Virus record (IMG/VR): IMGVR_UViG_3300032046_000019
Location: 1-64,000 of that record
Source: a virus
Reading direction: 5' to 3' (one strand)
DNA: 64,000 bases
Shown here in pieces: positions 14,097 through 62,836 of the stretch; within the stretch, counting starts at the first letter, position 1; each line of letters starts with the position of its first letter. The notes under the pieces were generated by a model, which was not told where the DNA came from, searched no databases, and saw only the letters and a list, made by a program, of their open reading frames with translations. The translations under genes were made by a program, and so were the position numbers.

Positions 14097-14438
14097 ATGA
14101 AAATCACCAAAGAATATCTTGCCAAGGTCATCAGAGAAGTTTTGAAAGAACAGGTTGAAGATGAAAATGATTTAAATCCAGTCTTTAATAAGGTTGTCAA
14201 TTCTATTATTAAAAATGGAAAAAGAATTACAATAAAACTAGGTAATGGAGAACCATTAAGTGACGAAGCTTGGAAAGTAAATAATTCTGTATACAGAAAA
14301 AATTTAGAAGATGGTTCTGAGTATATTATTAATAAAGCAATGGGTCTTATTATCAAGAAAACTTCCAGTGGAGAAGTTGAAATAAAAAATGGCACAATAG
14401 AAGATCTCAAAAATTTAGCTTACAATCCATTTCAATAA
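14097..14438 (+). CDS. Tagged small protein (MKIT-helix type), 113 aa
   Basis: It begins MKITKEYLAKVIREVLKEQ, the amphipathic tag shared with other genes here, ending in [I/L]-x-E sites (IRE, LKE). The rest is a polar protein with a short repeated strand pattern (IIKNGKRITIKLGNG) and no catalytic motif. It is a plus-strand gene in a minus-strand block, like several other tagged genes. The tag resembles T4 capsid-targeting sequences; packaging in the virion is inference. Confidence 0.75.
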   Translation: MKITKEYLAKVIREVLKEQVEDENDLNPVFNKVVNSIIKNGKRITIKLGNGEPLSDEAWKVNNSVYRKNLEDGSEYIINKAMGLIIKKTSSGEVEIKNGTIEDLKNLAYNPFQ

Positions 14439-14456
14439 CAAAACCCTTGTCAACTA
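14437..14456. repeat. 20-base direct repeat, copy 2
   Basis: Identical to 13915-13934. It overlaps the stop codon of the tagged gene. It keeps TTGACA on the minus strand but has no good -10 box, so it is probably a non-functional copy. Confidence 0.8.
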
Positions 14457-14472
14457 AAAGTTAAATTATTTT

Positions 14473-14501
14473 TTTACAAATTTCTTGTTTTATTATATAA
14501 T
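14473..14501 (+). promoter_or_regulatory. Sigma-70-type promoter, possibly leaderless
   Basis: TTTACA (14473-14478), 17 bases, TATAAT (14496-14501). The expected start falls at about 14508, right at the ATG at 14509, and no ribosome site is visible, so the transcript may be leaderless. Confidence 0.65.
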
Positions 14502-14508
14502 TTATAAT

Positions 14509-15099
14509 ATGACCACAAACAAATTATCAACATTAATAAAAAACTTCATGTTGTTTATTTTGTGTTCTTTTTTATGTTTTAATTCAAAATGTTATCAAAC
14601 CACAGTGTCTCGTAATTTAATTATCTCAAACCTAACATACACAACAGAGGTCAACAATGTAATTGATGCCTGGAATTCTTCTGTTTATTTAAATCAATTT
14701 AATATTGAAAATAATTGTAATATTAATGAATTATATTATTCTTTTTTACCTGATGAGGAATTTGTATTACGCTCAGATGGATACTGCCCCATCACATCTC
14801 CTGATGCACCAAAACATGAATGTAATCAAAGATTCGGTTATGCTTATGCTTTTTATTCACGAGATGAACAAGTACTTTATTTGACAAGTAATATTTTAAA
14901 TAAAAAATTCAATGAGCAATTTGTTTATTATTTAATTAGACACGAAACAGTACATTGGTTATCAACTTGTACTAGACATGAAGAATCAAGTTATTTATTT
15001 GATAATTCTGATTCTAGTCACTTAGATGGAAGACTTTGGTTTGGTACATATTCTGTTTTAGAACAGAGTTCTTTAACTACAAATTTAATGATTTATTAA
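14509..15099 (+). CDS. Secreted protein with HExxH zinc-protease motif
   Basis: 196 aa from ATG at 14509. Residues 1-28 look like a Sec signal peptide (basic start, FMLFILCSFLCF core). YYLIRHETVHWLSTCTRHEE (residues 140-159) contains H145-E-x-x-H149, typical of a zinc metallopeptidase, with His157 and Glu158/159 as possible third ligands. Several Cys would fit disulfides in the periplasm. The spacing does not match metzincins exactly, so the clan is open. It is one of few plus-strand genes in this block. Confidence 0.6.
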   Translation: MTTNKLSTLIKNFMLFILCSFLCFNSKCYQTTVSRNLIISNLTYTTEVNNVIDAWNSSVYLNQFNIENNCNINELYYSFLPDEEFVLRSDGYCPITSPDAPKHECNQRFGYAYAFYSRDEQVLYLTSNILNKKFNEQFVYYLIRHETVHWLSTCTRHEESSYLFDNSDSSHLDGRLWFGTYSVLEQSSLTTNLMIY

Positions 15100-15614
15100 A
15101 ATCTAATTTCTTTATCTAGGAAATTTTTTAAGTCTTTTCTGACGCCCTTTACAAATTGTTCTGTAGAAACTTGTTTATTAATCTTGTTACTAATATCTAA
15201 AGTTTCAACTTCAACCAATCCGTTATTTATTTTTTCATACACTTGGCTTATGGAATTATAAAATTTTTCATCTAAAGAAGAATCTGAGAATATTCCTATT
15301 CCCATTCTTTCCAAGAGGCTTGGATTGCATCTTTCTAATTTATTTTTTTCTAGAGAATAAAAATTCAAAGAAACATTGGGGGCTATTAACTGTTCGTTAT
15401 CGTTTAATTCGATACCAACATATAAATGTAAAAATCTTTTATTTAACTTTATTGATACTTCAATATCACTGTCGCTGTCATCATTATTTTGGTTATATAA
15501 TAGTTCCGTAACCCTGTGTGATAATGATGGCTCAAAAGTAACATAATAAAGATTTCCTTCCTTTAAGGAAGATTTTAAGTCTTTATATGTGTTTAATTTA
15601 ACTTTTTTAATCAT
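15096..15614 (-). CDS. G-x-x-Y / FYS-x-x-x-N family protein, 172 aa
   Basis: KEGNLYYVTFEPS is the front motif, RFLHLYVGIELND the central strand and VSLNFYSLEKNKLERC the end motif. A helical C-terminal extension of about 65 residues is extra; the 18061-18561 protein has the same architecture (GEHYYVVK, HLYFYLGIEE). It converges on the secreted protease gene with a 4-base overlap. Confidence 0.75.
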   Translation of the reverse strand: MIKKVKLNTYKDLKSSLKEGNLYYVTFEPSLSHRVTELLYNQNNDDSDSDIEVSIKLNKRFLHLYVGIELNDNEQLIAPNVSLNFYSLEKNKLERCNPSLLERMGIGIFSDSSLDEKFYNSISQVYEKINNGLVEVETLDISNKINKQVSTEQFVKGVRKDLKNFLDKEIRF

Positions 15615-16282: not shown

Positions 16283-16391
16283 TGTTTTTTTCCTAGTTGT
16301 TGTTGTTGATAATACCTAGTCTTAAATTTGTTTTAAACTATAACAATCAATCACTAATTGTGGTTAGTTTTTTGTAGAAGTATGCTATTTG

Positions 16392-16592
16392 CTATTTATA
16401 TTCTCCAAATATTGCAATGCATAATTCATAATCACGATTAGAATTAGATAAACCTCCATTCCACTAAACAGGACAAGATTGTCCATGACCCACCTTGCAT
16501 CCATGTGTACTACAACATATGCCTTCATGACTTTTAATTTCAGATGCATAAAGTTTTGGGTTTGTTCTGCTTAAATTAATCTTCCACCTTAA
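16392..16592 (-). pseudogene. Cys/His-rich small gene interrupted by TAG
   Basis: The frame is open from 16592 and reads RWKINLSRTNPKLYASEIKS, HEGICCSTHGCKVGHGQSCP and then V-TAG (16464-16466), followed in the same frame by WNGGLSNSNRDYELCIAIFG before the final TAG at 16392. The C-C-x-x-H-G-C-K-x-G-H cluster is not what a random frame gives. There is no ATG start, and its first codons overlap the end of the upstream gene. Likely a decayed gene; amber readthrough is the less likely alternative. Confidence 0.5.
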
Positions 16593-16926: not shown

Positions 16927-16953
16927 AATATTTTTCCTTTTATTCTACTAAAA

Positions 16954-17704: not shown

Positions 17705-17714
17705 TTATTTTCCT

Positions 17715-20116: not shown

Positions 20117-20401
20117 ATGAAAATTACAACACAACAATTAAGAAAAATTATAAAAGAAGAAATTGAAAAATATAATTCTTTTCCTTCCAAGGAAGATATA
20201 ATGTTAGCAGTAAGAAAATATGCAAAAGGTTCTGGTATTCCTTGGAATATACTTGATGAATTCTCAGACGCTGATATTATTAATGGAGTACTTTCTGATG
20301 ATATTTCAATAGCAGAGGGTATATTTGAGGTTGAAAAATGGTTGGGAGCAAAATGGAGAATTAGTCGTAGTCGTGATCGTGAAAAACAACACGATATATA
20401 A
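20117..20401 (+). CDS. Tagged small protein (MKIT-helix type), 94 aa
   Basis: It begins MKITTQQLRKIIKEEIEKYN, nearly base-identical over 45 bases to the gene at 27994. The remainder (EDIMLAVRKYAKG..., W-x-ILDEF-x-DADII, ...RDREK) also aligns with that gene, so they are paralogues. The tag ends in I-K-E. It is a plus-strand gene between minus-strand blocks. No enzyme motif is visible; a packaged internal protein is proposed. Confidence 0.8.
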   Translation: MKITTQQLRKIIKEEIEKYNSFPSKEDIMLAVRKYAKGSGIPWNILDEFSDADIINGVLSDDISIAEGIFEVEKWLGAKWRISRSRDREKQHDI

Positions 20402-20461: not shown

Positions 20462-20848
20462 TCATTTGATGTTCTTGTATCTTTGATTTAATTCTTTCAG
20501 GGCTTTCAAGCAAGTTTTCTCTGAGTTATACTTGACTCCTTCCAAAAACCACTGTTTTGATCCGTCATTCCATTCACAAGCCGGACCATCTTCTCTGTGA
20601 AGTTTTCCATTCAAACACCACTCTTTTAATCCATCATTCCATTCAATTGCCGGACCATCAACTCTGTGATAATTTCCATTCAAAAACCACTGTTTTGATC
20701 CATCACTTCCAATATGTGCCGGACCATCTTCTCTGTGAAGATTTCCATTCAAATACCAATATTTGGTTCCATCGGAATAAAATTCAATCTCCTTACGTTG
20801 AAGGGGATCGTTCTTAATATATCTTTTAAATAATATGTGGGTTTTCAT
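20462..20848 (-). CDS. HREDGPA-repeat protein (MORN-like), copy B
   Basis: 128 aa built from four repeats of about 22-23 residues: x-DG-x-K-x-W-x-LNG-x-x-HREDGPA, seen for example as NGNLHREDGPAHIGSDGSKQ. Proteins with this repeat are frequent in large phages, with unknown role. The start, RYIKNDPLQRKEIEF, matches the upstream copy. The starts and stops overlap by 4 bases with that copy. Confidence 0.85.
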   Translation of the reverse strand: MKTHILFKRYIKNDPLQRKEIEFYSDGTKYWYLNGNLHREDGPAHIGSDGSKQWFLNGNYHRVDGPAIEWNDGLKEWCLNGKLHREDGPACEWNDGSKQWFLEGVKYNSEKTCLKALKELNQRYKNIK

Positions 20849-21213
20849 CTTTTATACTCTTTCAAGGCTTCCCGGTGTTCTTTTTCAGAAAGAAATCTAT
20901 TTCCATTCAAAAACCACTGTTTTGTTCCATTACTATATTCACATGCCGGACCATCTTCTCTGTGAAGATTTCCATTCAAATACCAAGATTTTGTTCCATC
21001 ACTATATTCACATGCCGGACCATCTTCTCTGTGATGTTTTCCATTTAAAAACCAATGTTTTGTTCCATCACTTCTTTCAATTGCCGGACCATCTTCCCTA
21101 TGAAGTTTTCCATTCAAAAACCAATATTTGGTTCCATTAACATGGAATCCAATCTCCCTAATTTGACTGGGATCGTTTTTAATATATCTTTTAAAATTAA
21201 TAGCGGTTTTCAT
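20845..21213 (-). CDS. HREDGPA-repeat protein (MORN-like), copy A
   Basis: 122 aa, a tandem paralogue of the downstream gene, with four copies of LNG-x-x-HREDGPA after RYIKNDPSQIREIGF. The two genes are translationally coupled and lie between direct repeats of about 50 bases, so the pair may be a mobile or duplicated unit. Function unknown. Confidence 0.85.
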   Translation of the reverse strand: MKTAINFKRYIKNDPSQIREIGFHVNGTKYWFLNGKLHREDGPAIERSDGTKHWFLNGKHHREDGPACEYSDGTKSWYLNGNLHREDGPACEYSNGTKQWFLNGNRFLSEKEHREALKEYKR

Positions 21214-25716: not shown

Positions 25717-26538
25717 TTAAAATTGCAACCGAAACCACACTGGATAATGATCGGAAGTTGTCCTTGTTATTGTTCTTATTATTCCCCAATTATTAGAATA
25801 TCTTGTTCTCATATTCTCAGTTATAATAATTCTATCATAGGCACAATTTGTGCTTGCCACATTTGTATCTGCACTATCTGGAACAATCCAAACATATTGT
25901 GAACTATGCAATAATGTGTTGTTGACTTCTTGACTTGTGGCATATTGACATGCTGCGTTCATGTCGCCAAGTATAATATAATTATTTTCTTGCGGCCATA
26001 AGTTTCTCGTTTCTTCTACCACATAGTGCAAACCATTTATTTCGCTAATTGTGTTTATTGGTACAGTATGTATTGTAATAACTACAAAGGTTTGTTGAGA
26101 ATTTAACGTTCTAAATCTTGCAATCCATGGTTCTCTAGCAAAATTATTAAGTCTTTCATCATTAAATAAATGATTTTCTAAAATTTCAACCAAATTAGTA
26201 CGATAATAAAAAGCATATTGTTCTGCTTTTCTTAAATCACTTTGTTGTTGTCCAGTCCTTGGACTTAAAGACATAGCATATTGAGGTCCACTTCTTCTGT
26301 TTATTTGTTGTAACAGCATACCAGCCACTCTATTACTACTGTCAGAAATTTCTTGTATGGCAACAATATCATATGACCGTATAATAGAAACAATAACATT
26401 AACGTCTTGAGGTCTATTAATTTTTGTCATACCAAGGTTTTGTATATTAAATGTAGCAACATTAATTGCTTGTGAAAAACTTTTACTTTGGAAACAAAAA
26501 CTAAGTAAAATTATAAAAACAAATAATATCTTTTTCAT
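25717..26538 (-). CDS. Secreted endonuclease/exonuclease/phosphatase (DNase I-like)
   Basis: 273 aa from ATG at 26538 with GAGGA upstream. Signal peptide at residues 1-23 (KKILFVFIILLSFCFQSKSF). The DNase I-like fold shows in order ATFNIQNLG (motif with Asn), DIVAIQEI (metal Glu), VVITIHTVPIN (catalytic-His strand), IILGDMNAAC (Asp-x-Asn) and TSDHYPVWF (final Asp-His). It likely hydrolyses nucleic acid or a phosphodiester in the periplasm or outside. It is the third exported enzyme of the window and has its own promoter. Confidence 0.88.
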   Translation of the reverse strand: MKKILFVFIILLSFCFQSKSFSQAINVATFNIQNLGMTKINRPQDVNVIVSIIRSYDIVAIQEISDSSNRVAGMLLQQINRRSGPQYAMSLSPRTGQQQSDLRKAEQYAFYYRTNLVEILENHLFNDERLNNFAREPWIARFRTLNSQQTFVVITIHTVPINTISEINGLHYVVEETRNLWPQENNYIILGDMNAACQYATSQEVNNTLLHSSQYVWIVPDSADTNVASTNCAYDRIIITENMRTRYSNNWGIIRTITRTTSDHYPVWFRLQF

Positions 26539-27993: not shown

Positions 27994-28275
27994 ATGAAAA
28001 TTACAATACAACAATTAAGAAAAATTATAAAAGAAGAAATCGAAATAAATAGTTCGGTTCCTTCTATGGAAGAAATGGTTGCAGCGGTAAAAGCACATGC
28101 GATGAAAAACTACGAACATGGTGGCTGGGATTATGTTATTGAAGCATTTGGGGACAAAGACATTGCAGAAAAAATTGGTGATGCAAAAACAACAGAAGAA
28201 GCCATAAAAAATATAGGTTATGATTTAGGAATACTTCGTGATCGTGAAGATGACATTAGAGCAGAAAGGTTCTAA
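27994..28275 (+). CDS. Tagged small protein (MKIT-helix type), 93 aa
   Basis: From ATG at 27994 with TGGAGA upstream; it begins MKITIQQLRKIIKEEIEINS. A paralogue of the 20117 gene in the tag, the body and 45 near-identical leading bases; both share TTTTTTTATTTTTA at 40-41 bases upstream. Plus-strand gene in a minus block. Proposed packaged protein; no enzyme motif seen. Confidence 0.8.
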   Translation: MKITIQQLRKIIKEEIEINSSVPSMEEMVAAVKAHAMKNYEHGGWDYVIEAFGDKDIAEKIGDAKTTEEAIKNIGYDLGILRDREDDIRAERF

Positions 28276-29378: not shown

Positions 29379-29822
29379 TCAGAATTCTCCGCCTGAATTT
29401 AAGAAATCGGCTAGAGAGTTCATACTGTTTTGCACATCAGCTTGTAAGTCATTTATTACTCTGTCAATTTGAGGGTTTTTAATACCAAGTTTTGCAATAT
29501 CGTATTTAAGATTATTTAGTGTTTTTTCAAATGATGCAGCTGCATTTTGGGTATTACTTGCATGAGATTTTAACAAAGTAGATTTTGTTTTTTCTGATGC
29601 GGCTGTTCTTTTTCCGGCAGCATTTTTTTGCATTTCTGATGCTGCTGTTTCTGAACCAAGGGCACTAACAGCTTTTCCAGCTAATTCTGAGGCTTTAGCG
29701 GCCATATTGCCTTTAACTCCAGCTGCGCTTGCTTTGACTCTATCAAAAAAACCCTCATCAAGTTCTTTGTTTTGGATTTCTTCTTTAATAATACGTCTTA
29801 ATTGTTGTTTGGTGATTCTCAT
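29379..29822 (-). CDS. Tagged Ala-rich helical protein (MRIT-helix type), 147 aa
   Basis: From ATG at 29822 with GGAG upstream. It begins MRITKQQLRRIIKEEIQNKE, and the remainder is Ala/Lys-rich with heptad-like helices (AAGVKGNMAAKASELAGK). The tag matches the plus-strand tagged genes, though this one is on the minus strand. Similar Ala-rich proteins occur as small core or internal virion proteins; inferred only. Confidence 0.78.
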   Translation of the reverse strand: MRITKQQLRRIIKEEIQNKELDEGFFDRVKASAAGVKGNMAAKASELAGKAVSALGSETAASEMQKNAAGKRTAASEKTKSTLLKSHASNTQNAAASFEKTLNNLKYDIAKLGIKNPQIDRVINDLQADVQNSMNSLADFLNSGGEF

Positions 29823-35572: not shown

Positions 35573-36904
35573 ATGAAAAAGAAACAAAAACATTTAAAAT
35601 CAGAAGGTCAAAATGATATTGGAAATTTCAGCGGTGCTGCTAGTTTTCAAGGAAGTGCCCATGGCAAAAATGGCAATTATGGCTTGGGAGGGAAAAAACA
35701 ACTAGCAAAACCCTCAGATGAAGAAACAATTTCGGAACGTTCTCCTTCGGATGGTTTTTACCGAGATTTGCCTGGATTTCCCGAAATGAATTCTTTGCAA
35801 AATAAACAAGTAATGGTTCCTCGTGACCCAAACGAAGATGAAATTAATGATCGTCTTGGTCCTACTATAGATGGACAACCAATAGACGGTGTAGATACTT
35901 GGAAGTCAACGACCCCTTCTAAAATGGGAACCGCTATATATAAAACAAATTCAATACTTGCTAAAAAACAATTTGTACCAAAAGATATTCAAGCCGAAAA
36001 TACTATACCAGAGAGTGCAGGACCATCTGGCGTTGGTAGTCTAGGCTCTACAACTTGGAGTTCTTCTAAAAATGCTTTAGTAAAACCAAAAGATTTTTTT
36101 CAAGAATTAGAAGATTATAAAAACGGAGATATAAATGCAAAAAATCCCGTAGGAACAAAAGGAGTAATAGTTAGACCAACAACGCATGTACCCGACAATG
36201 GAGATGGTAAAGATGTTAAATTCAAAGAAAACAAGATAAATAAAATGAAATTTTTAAAAGAAATGATTGATTTATTAGTAGAAGAACTGTTATCAGAAGA
36301 AGACTTAGACGAGGCTCCTCAAAATGTACAGGCTATAATTCCTGGATTTCTCCCAGTTGGTCAATTTATAAAAGATACGGCCTATTTAGACCAATTACAC
36401 AAACAAGCATTAAAGATTGCTGATCCGAATCAAACATACCCAAATAGATATAAAGAGGCTCTGGACAATTTGAAAAAAGAACTTGAAGCAGCAAATATAC
36501 CTCAGCCAATGATAAAAACTATTATAGATCAGACTGATGCTGCTAGGCAAGAGAATATAGAAACAGACAAAAAACGAGCAGCAGGAATTTTAAGTAAACC
36601 AATTGCTGTGCAAGGAAAAGAACAGCAAAGAAATAAAGATGTTCCGAAACCACTTGAAGATACTGTTGTAAAACCTAATATTGATGAGATGAGATTGCTT
36701 AAAGACTATTATGAACAATTACAACAAGCTTCACCTAATATGAAAAATCAAATTGAGCAATCTATTATTACTCAAATAAAACAACTTGGTATAAATAAAG
36801 TTAAAAATTGGGTTGGTAGCGATGTTTATAACTCTTTTATTGGTGGTAAAAATATACCACCTGCAACCGCATATTATAAAGATTTACTAACTAAAATAAA
36901 ATAA
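35573..36904 (+). CDS. Virion-associated-like protein, 443 aa
   Basis: From ATG at 35573 (MKKKQKHLKSEG) with GGTGGAA upstream. A long low-complexity polar N-terminus, then MKFLKEMIDLLVEELLSEED near residue 225, an amphipathic segment resembling the tags and rich in [I/L]-x-E. The rest is helical. First gene of the plus-strand block. A structural or core role is inferred. Confidence 0.6.
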   Translation: MKKKQKHLKSEGQNDIGNFSGAASFQGSAHGKNGNYGLGGKKQLAKPSDEETISERSPSDGFYRDLPGFPEMNSLQNKQVMVPRDPNEDEINDRLGPTIDGQPIDGVDTWKSTTPSKMGTAIYKTNSILAKKQFVPKDIQAENTIPESAGPSGVGSLGSTTWSSSKNALVKPKDFFQELEDYKNGDINAKNPVGTKGVIVRPTTHVPDNGDGKDVKFKENKINKMKFLKEMIDLLVEELLSEEDLDEAPQNVQAIIPGFLPVGQFIKDTAYLDQLHKQALKIADPNQTYPNRYKEALDNLKKELEAANIPQPMIKTIIDQTDAARQENIETDKKRAAGILSKPIAVQGKEQQRNKDVPKPLEDTVVKPNIDEMRLLKDYYEQLQQASPNMKNQIEQSIITQIKQLGINKVKNWVGSDVYNSFIGGKNIPPATAYYKDLLTKIK

Positions 36905-47221: not shown

Positions 47222-48091
47222 ATGAATAAAAAAAGAGCATTAGTTTTGAGTGGCGGGGGTTCAAAAGGAGCATTTCAAGTAGGTGTTTTGAAATATTTAA
47301 TTGGAGAACTCAATAATCAATATGATATATACACAGGTATTTCTGTTGGAGCTTTAAATGCTTCATTTCTTTCACAATTTCCAAAAGGAAAAGAAAAAGA
47401 AGCGTTAGAAAATTTAGTAAATATTTGGAACAAAATCAACAAAGGAAACATTTATCATAATCATAGACCTTTTGGGAAATTAGAAGCTTTATGGAAATCA
47501 AGTGTTTATGATAGTTCCCCGCTTAAAGATTTTGTTTATAACAATCTTGATCCTGTTAAAGTTAAAGAATCCGGTAACGAATTAAGAATTAGTGCTTGTT
47601 CTTTATTAACAGGAAACTTAAAAGTTTGGAATGAAAAAGATACTGATGTTATTAGAGATGCTGTTTTAGCATCATCGTCTTTTCCAGTGATGTTTAACCC
47701 AATTAAAATAAACGATGATCTTTTCACTGACGCTGGGGTTAAAGATATTGCGCCACTTAGTGCAGCTATTGATGCTGGGGCAGAAATTATTGACATAATA
47801 GTTACTTCACCTTTTGGTTCCCAGCCATGGAAGACTAAAAGAAAAAATTCTATAAAAGTTCTACTACGTTCAGTTGATTTAATGTCTGATGAAATTTTAG
47901 CTAATGACCTAATAAAACTTGAGAAAATAAACAAAAAAGTTATTTTGGGTACAGCTGATCCTCGCTATAAATATATTGAATATAATTTATATAGACCTGA
48001 AAACCTCTTGACTGATAACTCTCTTGATTTTGATAGAAAATTGTTAGACACCATGATGGTGACAGGATATAAAACCGTAACAGAAAAATAA
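47222..48091 (+). CDS. Patatin-like phospholipase
   Basis: 289 aa from ATG at 47222; a longer frame starting at 47039 only overlaps the upstream gene. LSGGGSKGAFQVGVLKYL is the oxyanion loop, YTGISVGALNAS holds the G-x-S-x-G nucleophile (Ser41), and LFTDAGVKD the Asp of the dyad (Asp170, D-A-G in place of D-G-G). It would hydrolyse phospholipids or other acyl esters. No signal peptide, so it acts in the cytoplasm, or enters from virions. Sits after the tail genes; lysis or membrane attack is inference. Confidence 0.88.
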   Translation: MNKKRALVLSGGGSKGAFQVGVLKYLIGELNNQYDIYTGISVGALNASFLSQFPKGKEKEALENLVNIWNKINKGNIYHNHRPFGKLEALWKSSVYDSSPLKDFVYNNLDPVKVKESGNELRISACSLLTGNLKVWNEKDTDVIRDAVLASSSFPVMFNPIKINDDLFTDAGVKDIAPLSAAIDAGAEIIDIIVTSPFGSQPWKTKRKNSIKVLLRSVDLMSDEILANDLIKLEKINKKVILGTADPRYKYIEYNLYRPENLLTDNSLDFDRKLLDTMMVTGYKTVTEK

Positions 48092-49954: not shown

Positions 49955-50533
49955 ATGAGAGAAAACTTAAAAATATTAATAAATTCTATTCTAAAAGAAG
50001 AATTAAAAAAAATAAACGAGGCTGCTAAAACAATAGAATCTATTCCTAGTGAATATAAAGTTCATATAGGAAAAGGACTATTGGGTGGAGACAAAGATAT
50101 AGAATTAAAAAATGATCAAGATAATGTTTTGGGTTCAATTTCTCTAGCTAGACCAAAAAATGCTGATGGGCCTTGTCTAAGTGCCTATATAGTGTTCCAC
50201 TCTAGAGCCACAAGCGGCTATGGACCCCTCTTGTATGATATTGCGTTGGAGTATGCCGGTTCAAGTGGAATCGCCCCAGATCGCCTCCTAGTGTCTTCTG
50301 ATGCCTCATCTGTTTGGAATTACTATTATACCAATAGAGGAGATGTTAGAAAAGAACTTTTAGATAATATTTTATTACCACAAACACCACAAAAAGAAGA
50401 TGACTGCTCTTTTAAGTCATCTGGAGACGAAGAAGACAAAATAGAACGTCCTTGGTTAAATTATGTATATTACAAAGACTCGCAAGATAATATTAATAAA
50501 CTTAGAAGTCTTGGAAAATTAGTTGAAGAATAA
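49955..50533 (+). CDS. Tagged GNAT-like protein, 192 aa
   Basis: From ATG at 49955 (MRENLKILINSILKEELKKI); the first 20 residues fit the amphipathic tag (ILKEE). The body has SGYGPLLYDIALEYA, DRLLVSSDASSVWNYYY and NRGDVRKELL, the layout of a phage acetyltransferase-like group. Enzyme activity is possible; virion packaging via the tag is my inference. Confidence 0.7.
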   Translation: MRENLKILINSILKEELKKINEAAKTIESIPSEYKVHIGKGLLGGDKDIELKNDQDNVLGSISLARPKNADGPCLSAYIVFHSRATSGYGPLLYDIALEYAGSSGIAPDRLLVSSDASSVWNYYYTNRGDVRKELLDNILLPQTPQKEDDCSFKSSGDEEDKIERPWLNYVYYKDSQDNINKLRSLGKLVEE

Positions 50534-53170: not shown

Positions 53171-54157
53171 CTAAAGCAGTTTTTTGTTTTTAACGATTCC
53201 TGCTAATAATTTTAAGCGGTCTATAGAAATATATGATTCTTTTACAGAATTGTCTTTTAATTTTTCTAAACTTGGAACTCCAACATATTTTATATCGGAA
53301 AATCCTTCTTCTGTAGAAGGTGCGGAATAGGATGCAAACATTCTATCATATGCTTGTGTTGGAATTGTTTTTGCTCCACCACTAGCTTTAATTTCTTCTT
53401 GTCTAACCAAGGCAACATCTTTAATTTTTTGAACTAATTCTGGAGTATAACCTTCTTCTGGAGCAAAAACTATAGCAATTTGATTATAAAAATCATTGAC
53501 TTTGTTTAAATTACTTGGATCTTCTCCAAGTATTTTTAAAATGTCTTTTCTATGATTGTTTCTTTCTTGAACACTCATATTAACCATATCAATTGCAAAG
53601 TTTTTTCTTGTTTCCTCTTTTTTTCCAACTACAGTATTTTTAACATTTGAAAGTTCTTCTGCTACTTTTTCATTTGCAAGTTCAATTTTCTCCCACATGA
53701 AAGGATTTATAAATTCTGGTTTAACACCAAAACGAATAATTACATCTTGTAAATTTTTTAATAAAAAAGGCTTGAGTTCGCCATATTTTTCACTCGCAGG
53801 AACACTTGTTGCTAAATTAGCAATTTTTTTCAAATAAGAATCTACTTGATTCTTTGAATTTAAATCACTATCGTATTCTGATAATGTTTTTGAATCTGGT
53901 GGAATTCCTGCTTGATCTTTTAGTTCATTAGGTGGACGAGCAAACATGTCGTCATATGTTCCAACCTTGGTTTCACTAGCAATTTTTTCTACCAATTCAT
54001 CACGATTAATAATTTCATAACCTTGCAAATTAGTTTTTATATATGTACTTTTACCTGTTGCTGGAGGCCCAATTAAAAAAACAAGATTAGCCTTTGAATT
54101 TTGAGAACCATCATCTTGCATTTCTTTAAGGATTTTTACTAAAGATAATTTTTTCAT
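53171..54157 (-). CDS. P-loop kinase-like protein with tag-like N-terminus, 328 aa
   Basis: It starts MKKLSLVKILKEMQDDG (tag-like, ending L-K-E), then VFLIGPPATGKSTYIK (Walker A, residues 30-38) and NRDELVEKI, as in zeta-toxin and polynucleotide-kinase-type phosphotransferases. The C-terminal 130 residues are helical. Substrate not predictable. Flanked by 21-base repeats with the lectin gene. Confidence 0.75.
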   Translation of the reverse strand: MKKLSLVKILKEMQDDGSQNSKANLVFLIGPPATGKSTYIKTNLQGYEIINRDELVEKIASETKVGTYDDMFARPPNELKDQAGIPPDSKTLSEYDSDLNSKNQVDSYLKKIANLATSVPASEKYGELKPFLLKNLQDVIIRFGVKPEFINPFMWEKIELANEKVAEELSNVKNTVVGKKEETRKNFAIDMVNMSVQERNNHRKDILKILGEDPSNLNKVNDFYNQIAIVFAPEEGYTPELVQKIKDVALVRQEEIKASGGAKTIPTQAYDRMFASYSAPSTEEGFSDIKYVGVPSLEKLKDNSVKESYISIDRLKLLAGIVKNKKLL

Positions 54158-54748: not shown

Positions 54749-57700
54749 TTAATTACATTTACTATTGCCGCAACTTGTGCAAGAGAGGCAGCCTTCCAAG
54801 TAAGCTAAATCTTCCGATCCACAAGAGTCACATTTCTTTTTAATTTTTGTGCCATCTTTAATGTATGTTTTAAGTACTCTAGAAATTGCCTTAGAAAAAG
54901 AAAACAAGTCACTATCTTTTTCTCCACCCTTAACAACTTGTTCTACCACAAACTGTACGGCTGTGCCATGTCTTAAAGCCAAAGATAAAGTTCTTGTAAA
55001 TGCGCTCTCAGTATCGTTCGCAAATACTTTTGCTAAATCTTTTACAATAATCTCGTTATCACCTTCACCAATTATAACATTATAGGTTCCGTTTTTCTTA
55101 ATAAATCCTTTTTTAGCAGATTTTGGAATAGAAATATGTTCTGAGCGTCCAGCGAAAATTTCATATGGTTTATCGTGATATAAACCAACAAACGCATTCC
55201 ACTTCTCACCTTTCACTGTAATTTGATAGATGTCACAAGGTAACATTTCAGGTCGTTTTGGAGCGTGTGTTTCAATAAAGTCTTCTGTTATTATTTGTTT
55301 TTGTTTTGTTTCCGCTATTAACACGCCATCACGACAACCATCACGATATATTGTTACTCCTTTGGTTCCTGATAACCAACCAGTCATGTATATATCTGAT
55401 ACTGTTTCTTTTGAAATATCTGATGGTAAATTTGTTGTATTGGAAATACTATGACATATCCACTTTTGAGCGGCAGCTTGAGCTTTTATCTTCATTCCCC
55501 AATCAATATCATTTGCTCTTGCCTTGTAATAAGGGCTATCTTCTATTGCTTCTTTGCCCGCAACTTGCATCCATTTTTTATATTGATGATGATACACTTT
55601 ATATTCTTGCCATTTTATTCCAGTGGCATCAATAAAATCAACTCTCGCTTCTTTATCATTAGAATTTATTTTTTTTCTTCTCTTGTAAATTACTTCAAAA
55701 GCAGGTTCTATTCCTGAGGTTGTCTGTGTGAGAATTGAAACCGAACCTGCGGGTGCTGTCGTGGTTAGAGCAATATTGCGTCTTCCGTATTTTTCCCAAT
55801 TTTTTCTAAGATTTTCATCAAGATTCATTATTCTATTTATAAAAACATGCTCTTTTTCAAGATTGTAATCATAAACAGGAAATGCACCACGTTCTTTTGC
55901 AAGATTTACAGTTTCTCTATAAGCATTTAATCCAAGTTGTTTATATATTTCTTCAATAACTTCAACAGATTTTTCTGTTCCATAATGAATATTAAGAGCA
56001 GCCATTGTATCTCCGATAGCTGTTACACCAAGACCAGTTCTTCTTCCGTTAATTGCTGCTTTTTTAATTTTTTTCCATAAATCTAATTCAACTTGTTTAA
56101 CTTCTTGTGGTTCAGGATCTATTTCAACTTTATTAATAATTTTATCAATACATTCAAGTTCGAGATCAATCATATCATCCATAAGACGTTGAGAAATTTT
56201 TGTAATTTTTGAAAAATTCTCATAATCAAATTCTGCACCAGATGTAAATTGATTTTTTACAAATGAAAGAGTATTGATTAATAATAAACGGCACGAATCA
56301 TATGGGCTAAGAACAATTTCACCACAATTGAATACATGGACTCCCATGTAGGATACATTATCAACAACTTTTGTAATAACAGAAACCATATGATTGTCAT
56401 CAGCCGTGATATTGTAAACGTCATGCAGTCCCTCAATCTCAACAACGGAAACTACTTTGTGATTGTAGTTTGTTCCTGCTTCTTGTACTTCTTTCCAATT
56501 TTGAAATCCATATTTTGTCTTGAGTCTATATGATAGATTCTCTTGTTTGCAAGCTTGCTCCCATTCTTTCATCAATGGTTTACGTTCAAGATCAAACTTT
56601 AGTTTTGAAAACATTTGAGCTTGCTTGATTTTTATCGAATCAAGCTTTACCTTGTAGGTTTCATTTAATGTCTTTGTTCTTGCTGTGTTGATATCTTTGT
56701 TGCTGTTAACGTATATCAAAGAACACGCCTGAGAGCAAAATGAAGCTTCTCTTTGTAGGTGATTGATTGAGAATTTTGAGTCACAGATCTCACAGATCTT
56801 TTCTACAAAGACCTGATTATCAACAATATTAGCCACATATCCTTGAGATAGCATATTTTGCAATGTCTTGACAACTCTTGGATCGGTATCAATGTGATCG
56901 TAACCAAATTCAATAGCACATAATTTTGCCAATTCTGTTGGATTGGCTGCAAGCGTTTTTCTAAAGTCAGTAAAACCACTAGGTAATTGATTCATAGAAG
57001 CAAATTGCTCCCATTCATTTAGACTAAAACGTCTACCAAGTGTCTTTGTTAGTTCTGTGGCTTTATTTTTAATCTCTTCATTTGTAACAGAATATGAATT
57101 ACCATTTGCAAAACCTTTACAATCATGTTCAGCGTGAAATTGTTGATGTTCTTTGAATGTCATTATTTCAAGATTATCTGGACTATTGTTAAGTCCGTTA
57201 TAATCCTTATGATGAACAACAAGTCCACCCGTATTTGCCCAACCAGACTTTTTCGCATTTTCATAAACAGCATTCCACTTTTTTGGATTGTTATATTGAG
57301 CAATCAAACGATGCTCATACACTCTATTTTTAGTCATATCTTTAGTGTTACAATGAACAAGATAATATGGTTTACTATCTTTTTTTATAGATTGTGCGTA
57401 CTTAGAAAATCGCGGCAAACTATCACCAGAAACTAAATCTTTAGCTTGTTTTCTTGTGCCATCTTTTAATAAAAACTCATGATTAGGAGTTACATCTAAG
57501 AACGACATATCATCTAATGTAACTCTTACGATTTTTTGATTATGTCCCGTTATTCTTGGATTTCTACCTGTTTTAATTTCTACCAAACCAGTAGATGGAT
57601 TCAAAGAATATACTGGAACATCTTTTCCTTCTTCTGATAATTGTTTAATTGAAACAGCATTTCTGCCATCTGCTACAGCAATCAAAGTTTCGCCAGAAAA

Positions 57701-58579
57701 ACATGGATTAGTGCTTACAGTTCCAAATCCTTGTTCTTTATAACACTCAGTAGGAGTTGTATTAATAATATTATCCCAAAAAAGCAATCCAGGCTCAGCA
57801 CTTATCCATGCTGAATCAATAATTTGATCCCAAATTTGTTTGGCATTTATTTCTTTTCTTATTTGAGGATTTACTTTATTATCAACTGGAAATCTTACTT
57901 CATAATTTTTATTATCTTTTACAGCATTCATAAACTCATCACTAAGACGAATAGAAATATTTGCACCAGTAACTTTTTTAAGATCTCTTTTAATATTAAT
58001 AAAGGTTTCTATTTCAGGATGGTGTATTGATATAGAGAGCATCAAAGCGCCACGACGACCCGACTGAGCACATTCAATCGTACTATTACTATATCTTTCC
58101 ATAAAAATAGCAATTCCATCTGTGGTTTTTGCTGCATTTTTAGTAATAAGACCCTTTGGTCTAATTGTGGATATATCAAACCCTACGCCGCCGCGACGTT
58201 TCATAATTTGAATTTGTTCTTGATCTGTTTTGAGAATGCCACCATATGAATCATAGGGGGATTCGATAACAAAACAATTTGATATAGAAACGGTTTGATA
58301 TGGATTTCCAATTCCAGACATTGGTGAACCTTGAGGAATAATATATTTAAAATCTTTCAAATAAGAATAAATTTCATCCTCCGACAAAGGATTTGGATAT
58401 TTTTGTTCTATTCTGGCAAATTCTTTAGCTAATCTTTTATGCATGTCATCTGGTGTTTTTTCCAAAATATCTCCTTCAGGAGATGTTAATGCATACTTCC
58501 CTAAAAACACTTGTGCTGCTAATTCATCTCCATTAAAATATTCAATTGAATCTTTAATTGCTTCTTCGTAAGTTGCCAT
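54749..58579 (-). CDS. nrdJ: Ribonucleotide reductase, class II (NrdJ-like), split by an intein
   Basis: 1276 aa, of which about 817 are enzyme. Enzyme signatures: SISNCFVIESPYDSYGG, IMKRRGGVGFDISTIRP, the broken TNP|CGEIVLSPYD active-site motif (Cys and Glu after the intein), TTTAPAGSVSIL, and a C-terminal zinc ribbon (CDSCGSEDLAYLEGCLSC). This matches AdoCbl-dependent reductases; no small subunit gene is seen. It makes dNTPs for phage DNA synthesis and needs cobalamin. The intein must be removed for activity, as it splits the N-P-C-G-E loop. Confidence 0.9.
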   Translation of the reverse strand: MATYEEAIKDSIEYFNGDELAAQVFLGKYALTSPEGDILEKTPDDMHKRLAKEFARIEQKYPNPLSEDEIYSYLKDFKYIIPQGSPMSGIGNPYQTVSISNCFVIESPYDSYGGILKTDQEQIQIMKRRGGVGFDISTIRPKGLITKNAAKTTDGIAIFMERYSNSTIECAQSGRRGALMLSISIHHPEIETFINIKRDLKKVTGANISIRLSDEFMNAVKDNKNYEVRFPVDNKVNPQIRKEINAKQIWDQIIDSAWISAEPGLLFWDNIINTTPTECYKEQGFGTVSTNPCFSGETLIAVADGRNAVSIKQLSEEGKDVPVYSLNPSTGLVEIKTGRNPRITGHNQKIVRVTLDDMSFLDVTPNHEFLLKDGTRKQAKDLVSGDSLPRFSKYAQSIKKDSKPYYLVHCNTKDMTKNRVYEHRLIAQYNNPKKWNAVYENAKKSGWANTGGLVVHHKDYNGLNNSPDNLEIMTFKEHQQFHAEHDCKGFANGNSYSVTNEEIKNKATELTKTLGRRFSLNEWEQFASMNQLPSGFTDFRKTLAANPTELAKLCAIEFGYDHIDTDPRVVKTLQNMLSQGYVANIVDNQVFVEKICEICDSKFSINHLQREASFCSQACSLIYVNSNKDINTARTKTLNETYKVKLDSIKIKQAQMFSKLKFDLERKPLMKEWEQACKQENLSYRLKTKYGFQNWKEVQEAGTNYNHKVVSVVEIEGLHDVYNITADDNHMVSVITKVVDNVSYMGVHVFNCGEIVLSPYDSCRLLLINTLSFVKNQFTSGAEFDYENFSKITKISQRLMDDMIDLELECIDKIINKVEIDPEPQEVKQVELDLWKKIKKAAINGRRTGLGVTAIGDTMAALNIHYGTEKSVEVIEEIYKQLGLNAYRETVNLAKERGAFPVYDYNLEKEHVFINRIMNLDENLRKNWEKYGRRNIALTTTAPAGSVSILTQTTSGIEPAFEVIYKRRKKINSNDKEARVDFIDATGIKWQEYKVYHHQYKKWMQVAGKEAIEDSPYYKARANDIDWGMKIKAQAAAQKWICHSISNTTNLPSDISKETVSDIYMTGWLSGTKGVTIYRDGCRDGVLIAETKQKQIITEDFIETHAPKRPEMLPCDIYQITVKGEKWNAFVGLYHDKPYEIFAGRSEHISIPKSAKKGFIKKNGTYNVIIGEGDNEIIVKDLAKVFANDTESAFTRTLSLALRHGTAVQFVVEQVVKGGEKDSDLFSFSKAISRVLKTYIKDGTKIKKKCDSCGSEDLAYLEGCLSCTSCGNSKCN
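56327..57703 (-). other. Intein with HNH domain in the ribonucleotide reductase gene
   Basis: Residues 293-751 (459 aa). It starts with Cys (CFSGETLIAV, block A), has a block-B region (LDVTPNHEFLLKDGT), an HNH endonuclease (LVVHHKDYNGLNNSPDNLEI) and ends HDVYNITADDNHMVSV...VHVFN before Cys752. The penultimate residue is Phe instead of the usual His. A Cys-based zinc cluster (CEICDSKF, CSQAC) lies in the insert. Spliced out to rejoin NP|CGE. Confidence 0.9.
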
Positions 58580-58747: not shown

Positions 58748-61228
58748 TCAAACTATTTTTTTCAAAGTTAATCCATTGGATTCTTCTTTGTTTTTTTGTA
58801 CTCTTATAAATGCTGCTCTTAATGATGATCTTTGTGTTTCTTTTTCACTATTGGTATCGTTGCTATCTACACCACGCATTTCTTCTTCGCTTAAAATTCT
58901 CAATTTTGATTTTGAAGTATCTAAGTGAGCTTTTAATACAATGCCATCTATTCCTGCTCTATTTTTTGCAATATAGAGTGTTGCGAATCCAGTTGACTTT
59001 TCTGTCTGTTTTCTAGATAAACCTAATATAAAATCACAAATATGAGCTTGACCATAAGATTCTGCCATGTTTGTAGTATCAATTAGTTCACTTGAGGCAC
59101 CCTCTCTATTACTTTGGGTAGCTGTCCAAACAGGAATATCTGCTTCCCCAGCAAATCCACGTAGTTCTTCGAAAATTTTCTTTAATTCAAATCTAGGAGC
59201 ATCATATTTTTCACTAGATCTCATAATACCGGCATAATCGATAACAATCATATCTGGTTTGAATCCAGTATTAGATAATCTTTCTATGTGATTTCTTAAC
59301 ATTTGAACAGTGCAAGTTCCGGTTGGATAATATTTTACAAATAGCTTTCCATAATTGTCTTTATTTGCTCTATAGTGTTCTTTTATTTCTTCCTTGTTTT
59401 CAAAACAATAAGTTGAAGAAATATCAACCAAGTGAGAATCTATACGAACACCAAGTGCTCTTTCATTTAACTCAAAGGTATAAAAAATAACATTTTTGCC
59501 TTGTTTTAAGCCTTGTGCGGCTAAGTGAACAAGTACATGTGATTTTCCACAATTTCTATTAACGTCCATATTTTGAGTTAGATATAAATTATCAGAATCT
59601 ACCGTAAATCCGTAAAAATTATCATTTTCTAATTCTTCTATTGAAAATTTACATACATTGTGTCTAGTATTACTTGTTGTGTTTATAGCTGCTTGTTTTC
59701 TTTCAAGTTTAGTTGGTATTGAATGTAAATCACCTGTTATAAAAAGTCTGTTATAAGTTGTGTTATATTTTTTGTCAAACTTTTTTCTTTCAGTCACTGC
59801 GAAACCTAAAGAACGAGATAAAAACGCTACATCATTAGCTAATTGAATAGATTTTGTACAGTATTCTACTGAATTTCTATTTTTCTTCAAAGACCCATCT
59901 GTATCAATTAGACCAGCAAGTAATTTAAGTCTATTGTCCTTTGAAGATATCTTGTATTCATGTGGAATAAATTTATCACCACTTAACTTGTTAATAAGCT
60001 TTAGGCTTCTAAGCGAATTTCTTAATACATTATTGTGTTTATAACTCGTTGTTCCATAAATACCAATTGCCTTGTTATCTTTTTTATAGTGATGTGAATA
60101 GTTCATACCAATAGAATTGAGATAGCGTTCATAAGTTTGTTTTATTTCAGAATCTGCTGTTGTTAGCTCAATTCTATTTTCTTTAATTGAGCCATCTCCA
60201 AGCAGTAATCCTAAAACATATGGTTCGATTAATAATTCTTTATAGAATTTTTCTTTAAATTCAATTCCATTAGCAGGTTGATACCAAAAATGTACGTGTT
60301 TAAACCACTTTGATGATTTCAAATAATCTTTAATAGTAATTTCTACATGTTTTTTTGTTACTGAACTTGTTAGAGCAAGAGTATGATTTTCATTATATAC
60401 TTGCTCGTAGCCCCAACGAGTTTTAACTTTATACATCTTTTCATTACCGCGAACCAAATTTAAAACATTACGAGGTCTACTGTCTGGTCCCATTATTTTG
60501 GCACCAACTTCAATATCTTCTACGTTTTTGAGTGTTCCATTGAACATTAATATTTTTGTTCCCTTTGCATGACAACCTGTAGGAGCCACAACTACTCCAA
60601 TTTCCCCGGCACCAAGTCCACCATTAAGAACATCTCTCTTGTCTAGCTCGGGAATGCCTGTAGCAATCGTTTTACGGTACGTTGTAGAGTAACGTGCCTC
60701 AATGTCTTCTTCATCTCCGATGGTCAATCCTGGAGTTATTGTGGAGCCTGCAACGAGGGCATCTTTAATAACATTTGTTACCTTGTCATAATTTTCTGTA
60801 ACAATAAGTTCAACGCAACTCTCTAGTGCATTTTGCAATGATTGTTTTTTGCAAAACTCTAGTGAGCGTTCTTTGACATATGCTAAGTCACCAGCATTTT
60901 CATTCTTAATGATTTTTTCTAAAAACAATTTAACTTGTTGTTTCAGTCCTGCGTCTTTAGAGTTTCCTAAGTCCTGAACTAAAATCCCAGTTAATAACTC
61001 AGTGGATGGGAATTCTTTATATTTTTTATGATAGGAAACATATTTGTCTGCAATTAATTTTAAATAATTGTACTCAAAAAACTCAACATTCAAAACTTCG
61101 GAAAATTGAGCAGACCAGTTGCGGTCATTGATCATTGCTTGAATTATTTTTTCTTGAAAAGATTTATCAAACGCAAAGTATTTTTTTGTGTTTTTGTTAT
61201 CGTTATTTGATTCAGATTCTTGAGTCAT
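58748..61228 (-). CDS. dnaB: DnaB-type replicative helicase, split by an intein
   Basis: 826 aa from ATG at 61228 with AAGGA upstream; about 485 aa are helicase. Residues 1-150 form the N-terminal domain. GEIGVVVAPTG|CGKSHVLVHLA is the Walker A, split by the intein after Gly. Then FYTFELNE, MIVIDYAGIM (Walker B), and PVWTATQSNREGA. It unwinds the duplex at the phage fork. Only an intact splicing reaction gives a working P-loop. Confidence 0.92.
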   Translation of the reverse strand: MTQESESNNDNKNTKKYFAFDKSFQEKIIQAMINDRNWSAQFSEVLNVEFFEYNYLKLIADKYVSYHKKYKEFPSTELLTGILVQDLGNSKDAGLKQQVKLFLEKIIKNENAGDLAYVKERSLEFCKKQSLQNALESCVELIVTENYDKVTNVIKDALVAGSTITPGLTIGDEEDIEARYSTTYRKTIATGIPELDKRDVLNGGLGAGEIGVVVAPTGCHAKGTKILMFNGTLKNVEDIEVGAKIMGPDSRPRNVLNLVRGNEKMYKVKTRWGYEQVYNENHTLALTSSVTKKHVEITIKDYLKSSKWFKHVHFWYQPANGIEFKEKFYKELLIEPYVLGLLLGDGSIKENRIELTTADSEIKQTYERYLNSIGMNYSHHYKKDNKAIGIYGTTSYKHNNVLRNSLRSLKLINKLSGDKFIPHEYKISSKDNRLKLLAGLIDTDGSLKKNRNSVEYCTKSIQLANDVAFLSRSLGFAVTERKKFDKKYNTTYNRLFITGDLHSIPTKLERKQAAINTTSNTRHNVCKFSIEELENDNFYGFTVDSDNLYLTQNMDVNRNCGKSHVLVHLAAQGLKQGKNVIFYTFELNERALGVRIDSHLVDISSTYCFENKEEIKEHYRANKDNYGKLFVKYYPTGTCTVQMLRNHIERLSNTGFKPDMIVIDYAGIMRSSEKYDAPRFELKKIFEELRGFAGEADIPVWTATQSNREGASSELIDTTNMAESYGQAHICDFILGLSRKQTEKSTGFATLYIAKNRAGIDGIVLKAHLDTSKSKLRILSEEEMRGVDSNDTNSEKETQRSSLRAAFIRVQKNKEESNGLTLKKIV
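59552..60574 (-). other. Intein with LAGLIDADG domain in the helicase gene
   Basis: 341 aa. It begins CHAKGTKILMFNGTLKNVED (block A); block B is YNENHTLALTSS; LAGLIDADG motifs are YVLGLLLGDGS and LLAGLIDTDGS; the end is GFTVDSDNLYLTQNMDVNRN before Cys. The last residue is Asn and the preceding one Arg rather than His. Insertion lies exactly in the helicase P-loop, a known DnaB intein site. Confidence 0.9.
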
Positions 61229-61251
61229 GCATATCCTTGTTGTTGTTTTAA

Positions 61252-61291
61252 AAGAAAAAAAAGTAGACAACGGAATTTACCCATTGCCTAC
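61252..61291 (-). terminator. Rho-independent terminator between the exonuclease and helicase genes
   Basis: On the minus strand GTAGGCAATGG / CCGTTGTCTAC (11 pairs with two G-U) around a 7-base loop, followed by a run of T. It ends the 61319-62335 transcript and overlaps the helicase leader. Confidence 0.9.
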
Positions 61292-61318
61292 AAAGTCTCA
61301 CCACTTACTATAGATAGT

Positions 61319-62335
61319 CTAGTTACAACATAAAGTCATTTTCATTGTTGAAGCTAGTTTATCGAAATCAATATCTGTTATTATTTGATTGGAAATTAAG
61401 CCTTTTATTAAGCCTAATTTGTCCATTTTCGGTTCAAAAGTATCGACAGCATATTCTATTTTTTGTATTTGACTTGTAGACATTGAATTTGAACTTAGAT
61501 ACATAAGTTTCCAATTTCTTTCTACGATCATTCTAGCATCAATGATGTCCTTATATACCTTGATCTTCGTTCCTTGTGTTACCATTTGTTCACAATATTC
61601 AATCAAGTCTCCAACACAATAATCAGTGGTTATCTCATTGAATCCTGGTATTCTTTTTGTTAGAGTTTTGAATCCTACTCCTCCTACTCCGTTAATGTTA
61701 TCTGACTCATCTCCTACAACAGATTTTGCCAGTGCAAAATTATTTGGAGAAATGTCAAACATTTCCAGAACTGCTTGTTCGTTTACTATAATTTTTTTTG
61801 TTGGCTCAAATATTTCAACTTGTTTATCATCTAGCAGTTGATAAAAATCTTTATCAGATGACACAATTATTTTTTTACCACTTGTGTTTTTAAATTTGTA
61901 TTTTGTAAGATATCCAATTACATCATCTCCTTCAACATCTTGAACATACAATTGACATACTGGAATGTGCTTTAATACATTTATTAAAATATTAAGTTGT
62001 TGTTCTTTGTTATCCGCATCTTTTTGTATCCACTTCCTATTATCTTCTTTTTTTATTTCTTTAAAAGTCTTTTTATCTTTTTCTCTATTAGCTTTATATC
62101 CTTCAAAAATTTTCTTTCTTCTTTGTGAACCGCCACCTGATTCCCAAGCTATGAAAACTTTTGATGGAATCATATCTCTGACCAAGGCATTTAAGGATCT
62201 AATAAATCCAACTACACCACCAACAGGTATTCCCTGTGCTGTTATTGTTTCATTAACCATGAAGTTTCTTATAAATAAATTCATGCCATCAATAATCATT
62301 ATTGGACGATGTTCTTGATTTTTAGTTTTTAACAT
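61319..62335 (-). CDS. 5'-3' exonuclease / flap endonuclease
   Basis: 338 aa. PIMIIDGMNLFIRNF (first Asp), KIFEGYKANREK (arch basic residues), VEGDDVIGYL (E-x-D-D), IVSSDKDFYQLL (D-x-D) and VVGDESDNINGVGGVGFKTL (helix-3-turn-helix) are the T4 RNase H / Pol I exo signature. It removes primers and flaps during lagging-strand synthesis. Confidence 0.92.
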   Translation of the reverse strand: MLKTKNQEHRPIMIIDGMNLFIRNFMVNETITAQGIPVGGVVGFIRSLNALVRDMIPSKVFIAWESGGGSQRRKKIFEGYKANREKDKKTFKEIKKEDNRKWIQKDADNKEQQLNILINVLKHIPVCQLYVQDVEGDDVIGYLTKYKFKNTSGKKIIVSSDKDFYQLLDDKQVEIFEPTKKIIVNEQAVLEMFDISPNNFALAKSVVGDESDNINGVGGVGFKTLTKRIPGFNEITTDYCVGDLIEYCEQMVTQGTKIKVYKDIIDARMIVERNWKLMYLSSNSMSTSQIQKIEYAVDTFEPKMDKLGLIKGLISNQIITDIDFDKLASTMKMTLCCN

Positions 62336-62407
62336 ATTCTTAGTTTACCAAATTATGTTTTAACAGTATACACGAAAAACAATTATCTTACGATATTTAA
62401 TGTCACT

Positions 62408-62836
62408 ATGAGTACAAAAAATTCAAAAGACTTAATAAGAGACTTAATAAAAGAAGAATTGATTTTATATAAACAAAAACAAATAAATGAAAGTTTTGTT
62501 GGCGTTGCTATGTTGGCTGCTCTTGGGGCAGTTATAACAAAAGTTGTAACATCTGTTATGAAAGATTATTCACAAAATATACAAAGTGGGCAAAAGGCAA
62601 CAAGCGAAGCCTCTATGAAATATTTATCTAATCTAATGAAAACTTCTTTTTTGTCCGACCCAAGAGTGACCTCTCAGATAGAGTCATATAAAAGTTTAAA
62701 GACTCCTGAAGATAAAGAGAAAATTAAAACAGAGATTTTTAGACTTATTAAGTCAACATTGGAAAATAAATTCAATATTGAACCAAGAGACTCCAGTAAA
62801 ATATCATATATCGTTGTTACTGATTTATTCAGATAA
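62408..62836 (+). CDS. Tagged protein (amphipathic-helix type), 142 aa
   Basis: It starts MSTKNSKDLIRDLIKEELIL, a variant of the tag ending I-K-E; a short hydrophobic segment (VGVAMLAALGAVITKVV) and a helical body follow. Plus-strand gene in a minus block. Proposed packaged protein. Confidence 0.7.
   Translation: MSTKNSKDLIRDLIKEELILYKQKQINESFVGVAMLAALGAVITKVVTSVMKDYSQNIQSGQKATSEASMKYLSNLMKTSFLSDPRVTSQIESYKSLKTPEDKEKIKTEIFRLIKSTLENKFNIEPRDSSKISYIVVTDLFR

Follow-up and report, generated by a model that had tools for sequence, protein, structure and literature searches.

Why should phage proteins with unrelated bodies begin with the same short helix? The question is raised by positions 1–64000 (hereafter the window) of the 69,320-bp IMG/VR virus record IMGVR_UViG_3300032046_000019, a fragment of 31% G+C in which 83 genes were called by codon usage. 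Seven of these genes encode an N-terminal helix of 12–28 residues ending in [L/I]-x-E, which we term the tag. The original prediction located it on genes starting at 14097 (g20), 20117 (g31), 27994 (g48), 29822 (minus strand; g50), 49955 (g69) and 62408 (g80), with a similar start on a kinase-like gene at 54157 (g75). All of the first six are present at these positions with the tag, and the kinase-like gene has a short variant of it, its homologues at loci L085 and L126 bearing the canonical form (MKITNKQLRQIIKEELNRVLRE↓N; arrows mark putative cut sites). From comparisons of sequences and of genome content we consider it highly likely that the common N-terminal segment serves as a capsid-targeting propeptide like that of phage T4, which would be cut at [L/I]-x-E by the prohead protease before the mature cargo is injected.

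By analogy with T4, the amphipathic tag helix would bind the core scaffold of the assembling prohead late in infection, and this binding would drag unrelated cargo into the prohead. A protease of the gp21 family would then cut after the glutamate of [L/I/M]-x-E↓[A/G/S] at the end of the tag, a site identified here by its conservation, and the mature cargo would remain in the head with the DNA, to be injected as a host-takeover or counter-defence effector. In larger open reading frames (ORFs) the same site lies between domains, such that polyprotein cargo would be cut apart in the prohead. This model passed a series of comparative tests, and it is supported by the co-occurrence of the tag with gp21 and gp23, linkage to gp21, a glutamate-specific site, the conservation of that site in the g69 family, including at internal positions, and the differing tags that precede it. 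T4 IPI and Alt are known effector or counter-defence proteins. If the model is correct, a signature of 15–25 residues readable from DNA alone would mark head-loaded, probably injected proteins of uncultured phages, small proteins that lack known relatives would become, in their hundreds, predicted effectors or counter-defence proteins like T4 IPI and Alt, and their exact predicted N-termini could be checked by virion or environmental proteomics.

The tag recurs on unrelated proteins of uncultured phages

The motif [LIMV][IVLM][KR]E falls within the first ~20 residues of 7 of the 83 called window genes, exactly those of the original prediction, against a mean of 0.58 motif-bearing genes in within-gene shuffles, where seven was never attained in 2000. 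The p-value of this test is optimistic because the motif was set after the tags had been seen, and the real weight of the tag evidence therefore lies outside the window. Independent confirmation came from IMG/VR, which was scanned with an exact degenerate DNA pattern for M[KR]IT...L..II[KR]EE. At least 120 stretches match, and those listed hold 172 tagged ORFs (155 distinct, median 117 amino acids). In prokaryote genomes (257 Gb) the pattern occurs in 11 stretches, several of which are dense tag arrays on phage-like contigs in metagenome-assembled genomes. With up to three mismatches allowed, large tagged records have as many as 31 tags each and 20 gp21-positive large records together give 226 matches; nine untagged control records give none, and a reversed control pattern matches once in all 33 records. 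The uncultured 484-kb phage LR756508 (GenBank) has nine tag-like ORFs within 49 kb. A tblastn search of cultured phages with a 23-amino-acid tag returned no match, a result that is uninformative since low-complexity filtering may mask the tag, and among open-licence papers we found none with MKITK and none on such a tag in environmental phages.

The bodies behind the tag had been said to differ completely. This is largely borne out, as the 141 tagged bodies among the matches listed form 128 unrelated clusters, but in the window g31 and g48 are perhaps related. When 131 tagged proteins were scanned, they matched just five Pfam and seven PHROGs families, one protein apiece. Several tag classes exist. 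Tags inside one genome are near-alike in DNA and tagged genes lie in tandem arrays, both of which would suit an evolutionary scar, that is, a shared 5′ segment spread by recombination whose peptide has no role. We regard this as extremely improbable, given that conservation is seen at the protein level across very different tags and that homologous cargo retains the site alone while the tag sequence changes.

Two further observations concern the distribution of tagged genes. At L082, a DnaK-like gene is followed by an operon (870–13829) of about a dozen tagged genes, which represent two tag classes. In the window, g32 and g33 (20462–21213, −) are an untagged pair with DG.K.W.LNG.LHREDGPA repeats, and a similar repeat protein at L071:4367–4906 is canonically tagged.

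Tagged records encode a T4-type prohead protease

The T4 gp21-family prohead protease (PF03420) was found in 39 of 55 tagged records and in 7 of 39 control records, the latter picked by an arbitrary 14-mer. Among records of 17–100 kb the protease is present in 20/34 tagged and 3/33 control records (p = 2e-5). The T4 catalytic residues His85 and Ser140 proved invariant when eight gp21-family sequences were set against those of T4 and a Flavobacterium phage. Of the 36 large tagged or related records searched, 26 encode a gp23-type capsid protein. Tagged genes lie beside gp21 at L122–L126 and L128, flanking it on both sides in L125 and L128, and at L126 a tagged kinase homologous to g75 is directly upstream of it. 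The 25 gp23 pro-regions that fit the pattern terminate in L-x-E (...LL[R/K]E), 24 of them in LRE or LKE, and in most the next residue is A or S; judged by sequence, this terminus is similar to the site that closes the tag.

These features bear on whether the tag might instead address proteins to another place in the cell, such as a replication compartment, the membrane, the host polymerase or a chaperone. Annotation does not give the location, since Pfam is matched by only 5/131 tagged proteins. The linkage to gp21, the likeness of the site to the gp23 pro-region end, the near-restriction of the tag to phage sequences and the parallel with T4 IPII and IPIII (both MKTYQEFIAE↓A) nevertheless make such an address very unlikely.

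The original prediction had also pointed to a nearby ClpP-like protease, while remarking that the T4 enzyme is of another family. The gene is present (34253–34867, −; PF00574, E 7.3e-28) but encodes an ordinary Clp protease and not a prohead protease; it was discarded as a candidate and is irrelevant here, as the relatives encode T4's own gp21 family.

The putative cut site is glutamate-specific and usually lies near residue 22

Cleavage had been predicted after [I/L]-x-E. A glutamate-specific [LIM]xE site is indeed enriched, but the IKE↓E at residue 14 is usually not the likely bond. The scissile bond is more likely to be, in most cases, the second [LIM]-x-E↓[A/G/S] near residue 22, the glutamate of which is at position 22 in g69, 23 in g50 and 28 in g80. 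In the window, a site is present in g50, g69, g80, g75 and g20. The sequence [LI]xE with its glutamate at residue 21 or 22 occurs in 47% of the 155 tags among the matches listed, compared with 1% per position in the bodies. Likewise, [LIM]xE[GASN] at residues 16–45 is 5.0-fold enriched over the body rate (66 occurrences vs 24.4, s.d. 4.7, in composition-preserving shuffles). Decoy motifs over the same residues, in which glutamate was replaced by D (0.72-fold), Q, K, S or T, show no enrichment, and with a P1′ residue other than G, A, S or N the enrichment is just 1.6–1.9-fold.

A tag that docks on capsid or scaffold as an uncut helix, with LxE reflecting nothing but amphipathic periodicity, is the alternative most directly addressed by these counts. 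The tag does end where the predicted helix ends, the spacing of IxE14 and LxE22 corresponds to helix repeats, and mature cargo could retain the tag. However, the enrichment is confined to glutamate, being absent for aspartate and glutamine, and is accompanied by a bias for Gly, Ala, Ser or Asn at P1′; this would be expected from gp21 specificity and not from a helix alone. Passages of PMC9026906 give the T4 gp21 motif as L/I-x-E and report that Asp at P1 (position 10) inhibits processing. As gp21 also co-occurs with the tag, we consider an uncut docking helix unlikely. With a cleaved propeptide, the predicted mature N-termini would be AAKTIESIPSEYK for g69, GFFDR... for g50 and SFVGVAMLAALGAVITK for g80.

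The site is conserved in the g69 cargo family while the tag varies

The g69 gene (49955..50533, +) encodes a 192-residue GNAT-like protein with tag and site MRENLKILINSILKEELKKINE↓AAK at 49955–50020. Direct searches of viral contigs for close relatives of g69 and g75 found none. Relatives of g69 do occur in many large records, and a g69 profile search gave 63 loci with 88 distinct domains; the count was made on the 83 that are aligned as far as the domain start. The domain start carries [LIMVF]xE in 82/83, a figure that could be biased by the requirement that the alignment reach this point, against 5.8% at random body places in the family; P3 is Leu in 73, and P1′ is Ala in 40 and Gly in 23. 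Of the five domains not counted, two are fragments at contig ends and three have alignments that begin further in; where shown, the residues upstream of these three include LxE-like sites. The site is kept in 70/71 N-terminal copies and 12/12 internal copies. Eight residues are invariant across 54 sequences, E22 of g69 among them, and alignment A2 pairs INE22↓AAKTIESIP of g69 with LLTE14↓AAKTVEDLP.

The tags that precede homologous g69-type cargo differ, reading MKITK.QLK.IIKEEL...L.E, MNLLREYIRELLTE↓A, MKKLLTEWREFLKE↓G or MKLTEAKLKKLINEVLEE↓G elsewhere and MRENLKILINSILKEELKKINE↓A in the window, where the tags of g80 and g75 are likewise diverged. As far as these alignments go, the tag and the predicted cut site are separable modules.

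The predicted structure of g69 (pLDDT 89.6, pTM 0.83) places helix 2–20 as a separate arm in front of a confident domain, with the putative cut site within a less confident link to this well-folded part. Most of the chains that align best with this model are GNAT acetyltransferases, with Z scores reaching 8.0 and low sequence identity, and Pfam GNAT does not match g69 itself. The designation of the predicted mature part as GNAT-like is therefore a lead.

Internal sites suggest that some cargo is made as polyproteins

The same site is found between domains of larger ORFs. A 923-residue ORF at L082 comprises DUF192 (9–110), a PolyA_pol domain of the poly(A) polymerase/CCA type (163–286), a g69-like domain and a PAP2 phosphatase domain (825–915), joined by linkers containing RKSIRLLLRE↓SST, ESVIVRLLTE↓AAK and NFVKEILKE↓ETF. 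Separate ORFs in G087 match three of the L082 domains, the g69-like one beginning MNLLREYIRALLTE↓AAK. At L355 an ORF of 1383 residues, the largest that holds an internal g69-like site, contains three copies of the g69-like domain plus one Pfam GNAT domain, with a site before each. Such L-x-E↓A sites between domains are sometimes accompanied by tag-like helices. The internal boundaries of L390, L394 and L355 keep the site without the usual tag, which again speaks against an uncut docking helix; at L359 and L366 an internal start is possible, because a Met lies close ahead of the site.

Since the site stands between domains in larger ORFs, some of the cargo would seem to be synthesised in polyprotein form. 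On balance, we lean towards the view that some injected effectors of uncultured large phages are packaged polyproteins, which the prohead protease would split into separate enzymes in the head. If this is true, prohead proteases would generate effectors from packaged polyproteins, and we found no description of effector processing via prohead maturation in the literature searched.

Lineage of the window phage, strand bias and evidence against the model

Several observations weigh against a capsid-targeting propeptide. The window's 69,320-bp record has no match to gp21, and its closest relative found, G046 (a 65-kb fragment with a polymerase of 57% identity), has no match to gp21, gp23 or the tag pattern. 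Among records of at least 100 kb, the difference in PF03420 content between tagged (19/21) and control records (4/6) is not significant (p = 0.2). The cultured gp23 relatives immuto, Mel-JY01 and RM378 have no canonical tag in the stretches around gp21 and gp23. In g31 and g48, only IKE↓E is available, with no clear second site. In relatives, tags lie on the gp21 strand in 217/226 cases, which is the baseline for ordinary ORFs (382/406), and in the two-directional record G026 (278 kb; the record of L045) 8/11 tags are on the strand opposite to gp21 and gp23.

We recognised no head genes in the window record. Because the record is a fragment of this kind, a protease of its own was inferred from relatives. 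The window DNA polymerase III alpha is 37–41% identical over nearly its full length to that of tagged records of 240–290 kb that are positive for both gp21 and gp23 (G026, G087, G088, G012, G017, G086, G036 and G091), whereas four untagged control records that encode gp21 gave no match to it. This relationship suggests that the window phage possesses a gp21-type protease.

The claim that most tagged genes have a late-strand orientation holds for the two-directional window, where the + strand carries 5/7 tagged genes and 15/76 others (p = 0.008). It is uninformative in the relatives, because these genomes are one-directional, and G026 runs contrary to it; with the baseline of 382/406 ORFs, orientation was discarded as general evidence. 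Regions upstream of tagged genes were searched for the T4 late promoter TATAAATA, with no consistent signal. Separately, g69-like copies occur several times in loci of G026, and the kinds of tag that they bear differ.

Comparison with known systems

The capsid-targeting sequences of T4 IPI, IPII, IPIII and Alt resemble the tag in being short N-terminal amphipathic peptides on unrelated small proteins that end in [L/I]-x-E. Comparison with the T4 internal proteins, which the original prediction had called for, bears this out, IPI (...TITE↓A) ending in the same way as IPII and IPIII. Further points of likeness are the gp21-family protease in the relatives, Glu and not Asp at P1, and Ala, Gly or Ser at P1′. 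A conserved tag ahead of diverse cargo is a T4 theme in passages of PMC3012670 and PMC9026906. In contrast to T4, the tag here has 12–28 residues, falls into several classes and occurs on tens of genes per genome, most of the cargo has no known relatives, and the site recurs inside multi-domain ORFs. The similarity between MKTYQEFIAE↓A of T4 and MKQLLTEWRKFVLTE↓G here is visual, the peptides being too short for a homology test. The T4 core protein gp67 (gene 67, L396:42782–43024) contains TIDLIKEEKIAIARNFLIEGEE, which resembles the IIKEEL...L.E tag, a possible hint of core-protein mimicry by the tag.

Passages of Iyer et al. (2017; PMC5512222) describe the polyvalent proteins of phages and conjugative elements as multi-domain, predicted to be packaged in the head and including GNAT domains, and one of them, P1 DdrB, as proteolytically processed before packaging. 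Several domains in one polypeptide, GNAT or GNAT-like domains and predicted packaging would be features in common with L082-type ORFs; in these passages the peptidase link is an MPTase domain within the protein, whereas here a gp21-type protease is predicted to cut at L-x-E↓A domain boundaries. In SPN3US and phiKZ-like giant phages, head and ejection proteins lose N-terminal propeptides after Glu through a gp21-related protease, and two of these propeptides are short (20 and 24 residues), as seen in passages of PMC10052503 and PMC9026906. Most SPN3US propeptides, however, are long (111–254 residues), and those passages describe no short tag shared across dozens of proteins. The concept is known from T4; in the literature searched, we found no description of the tag classes, of the scale on which they occur in large uncultured phages or of the internal sites.

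Remaining tagged genes and neighbouring genes of the window

The g20 gene (14097..14438, +; 113 amino acids) has a tag and putative site MKITKEYLAKVIREVLKE↓Q at 14097–14150, and its product matches no Pfam family above the cut-off and no PHROG family. The tags of g31 (20117..20401, +; 94 amino acids; MKITTQQLRKIIKE↓E at 20117–20161) and g48 (27994..28275, +; 93 amino acids; MKITIQQLRKIIKE↓E at 27994–28038) both fit MKIT[T/I]QQLRKIIKEEI. The two proteins give a 48% alignment over 60 amino acids including the tag, but only E = 0.15 for the bodies alone, so that kinship is suggestive; they may be paralogues. For g50 (29379..29822, −; 147 amino acids; MRITKQQLRRIIKEEIQNKELDE↓GFF at 29754–29822), the site is preserved in N-terminal matches at L117 (VDE↓GFV), L057 (LDE↓GFM) and L073 (LNE↓GVF). 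The sole family signal of g80 (62408..62836, +; 142 amino acids; MSTKNSKDLIRDLIKEELILYKQKQINE↓SFV at 62408–62491) is a weak, sub-threshold SieB-like match. The P-loop kinase-like g75 (53171..54157, −; 328 amino acids) has its short variant tag MKKLSLVKILKE↓MQ at 54122–54157 and matches AAA_33 with E 2.7e-5, slightly under the family cut-off.

The Gly-rich g01 (376..1101, −) has the L-F-E sites that had been reported for it, as two motifs (SKFLFE↓QEN and LASLFE↓ADED) that are both retained in the homologue at L130 (44% identity; TLLFKEAE and SLLFEQE), making it a possible further protease substrate. Adjoining it is an Fe/Mn superoxide dismutase gene (1123–2070, −; PF02777, E 2.7e-15), and the pair is kept in L130. 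The + strand block of tail genes is headed by g55 (35573..36904, +; 443 amino acids), which has an internal stretch that reads as tag-like, KFLKEMIDLLVEELLSEEDLDE↓AP.

PHROGs searches with the tail-block proteins of the window gave weak tail-fibre matches only. This block also contains a patatin-like phospholipase (47222–48091, +; PF01734, E 1.5e-28) and a 1308-residue protein (40259–44185, +) with many repeats around LPVTQSV / SNTPLVTITNPVTTAS. An endonuclease/exonuclease/phosphatase-like protein (25717–26538, −) has, by eye, an apparent signal peptide, which is unusual for a phage. Finally, the ribonucleotide reductase-like (54749–58579, −) and replicative-helicase-like (58748–61228, −) ORFs appear from their sequences to contain inteins.

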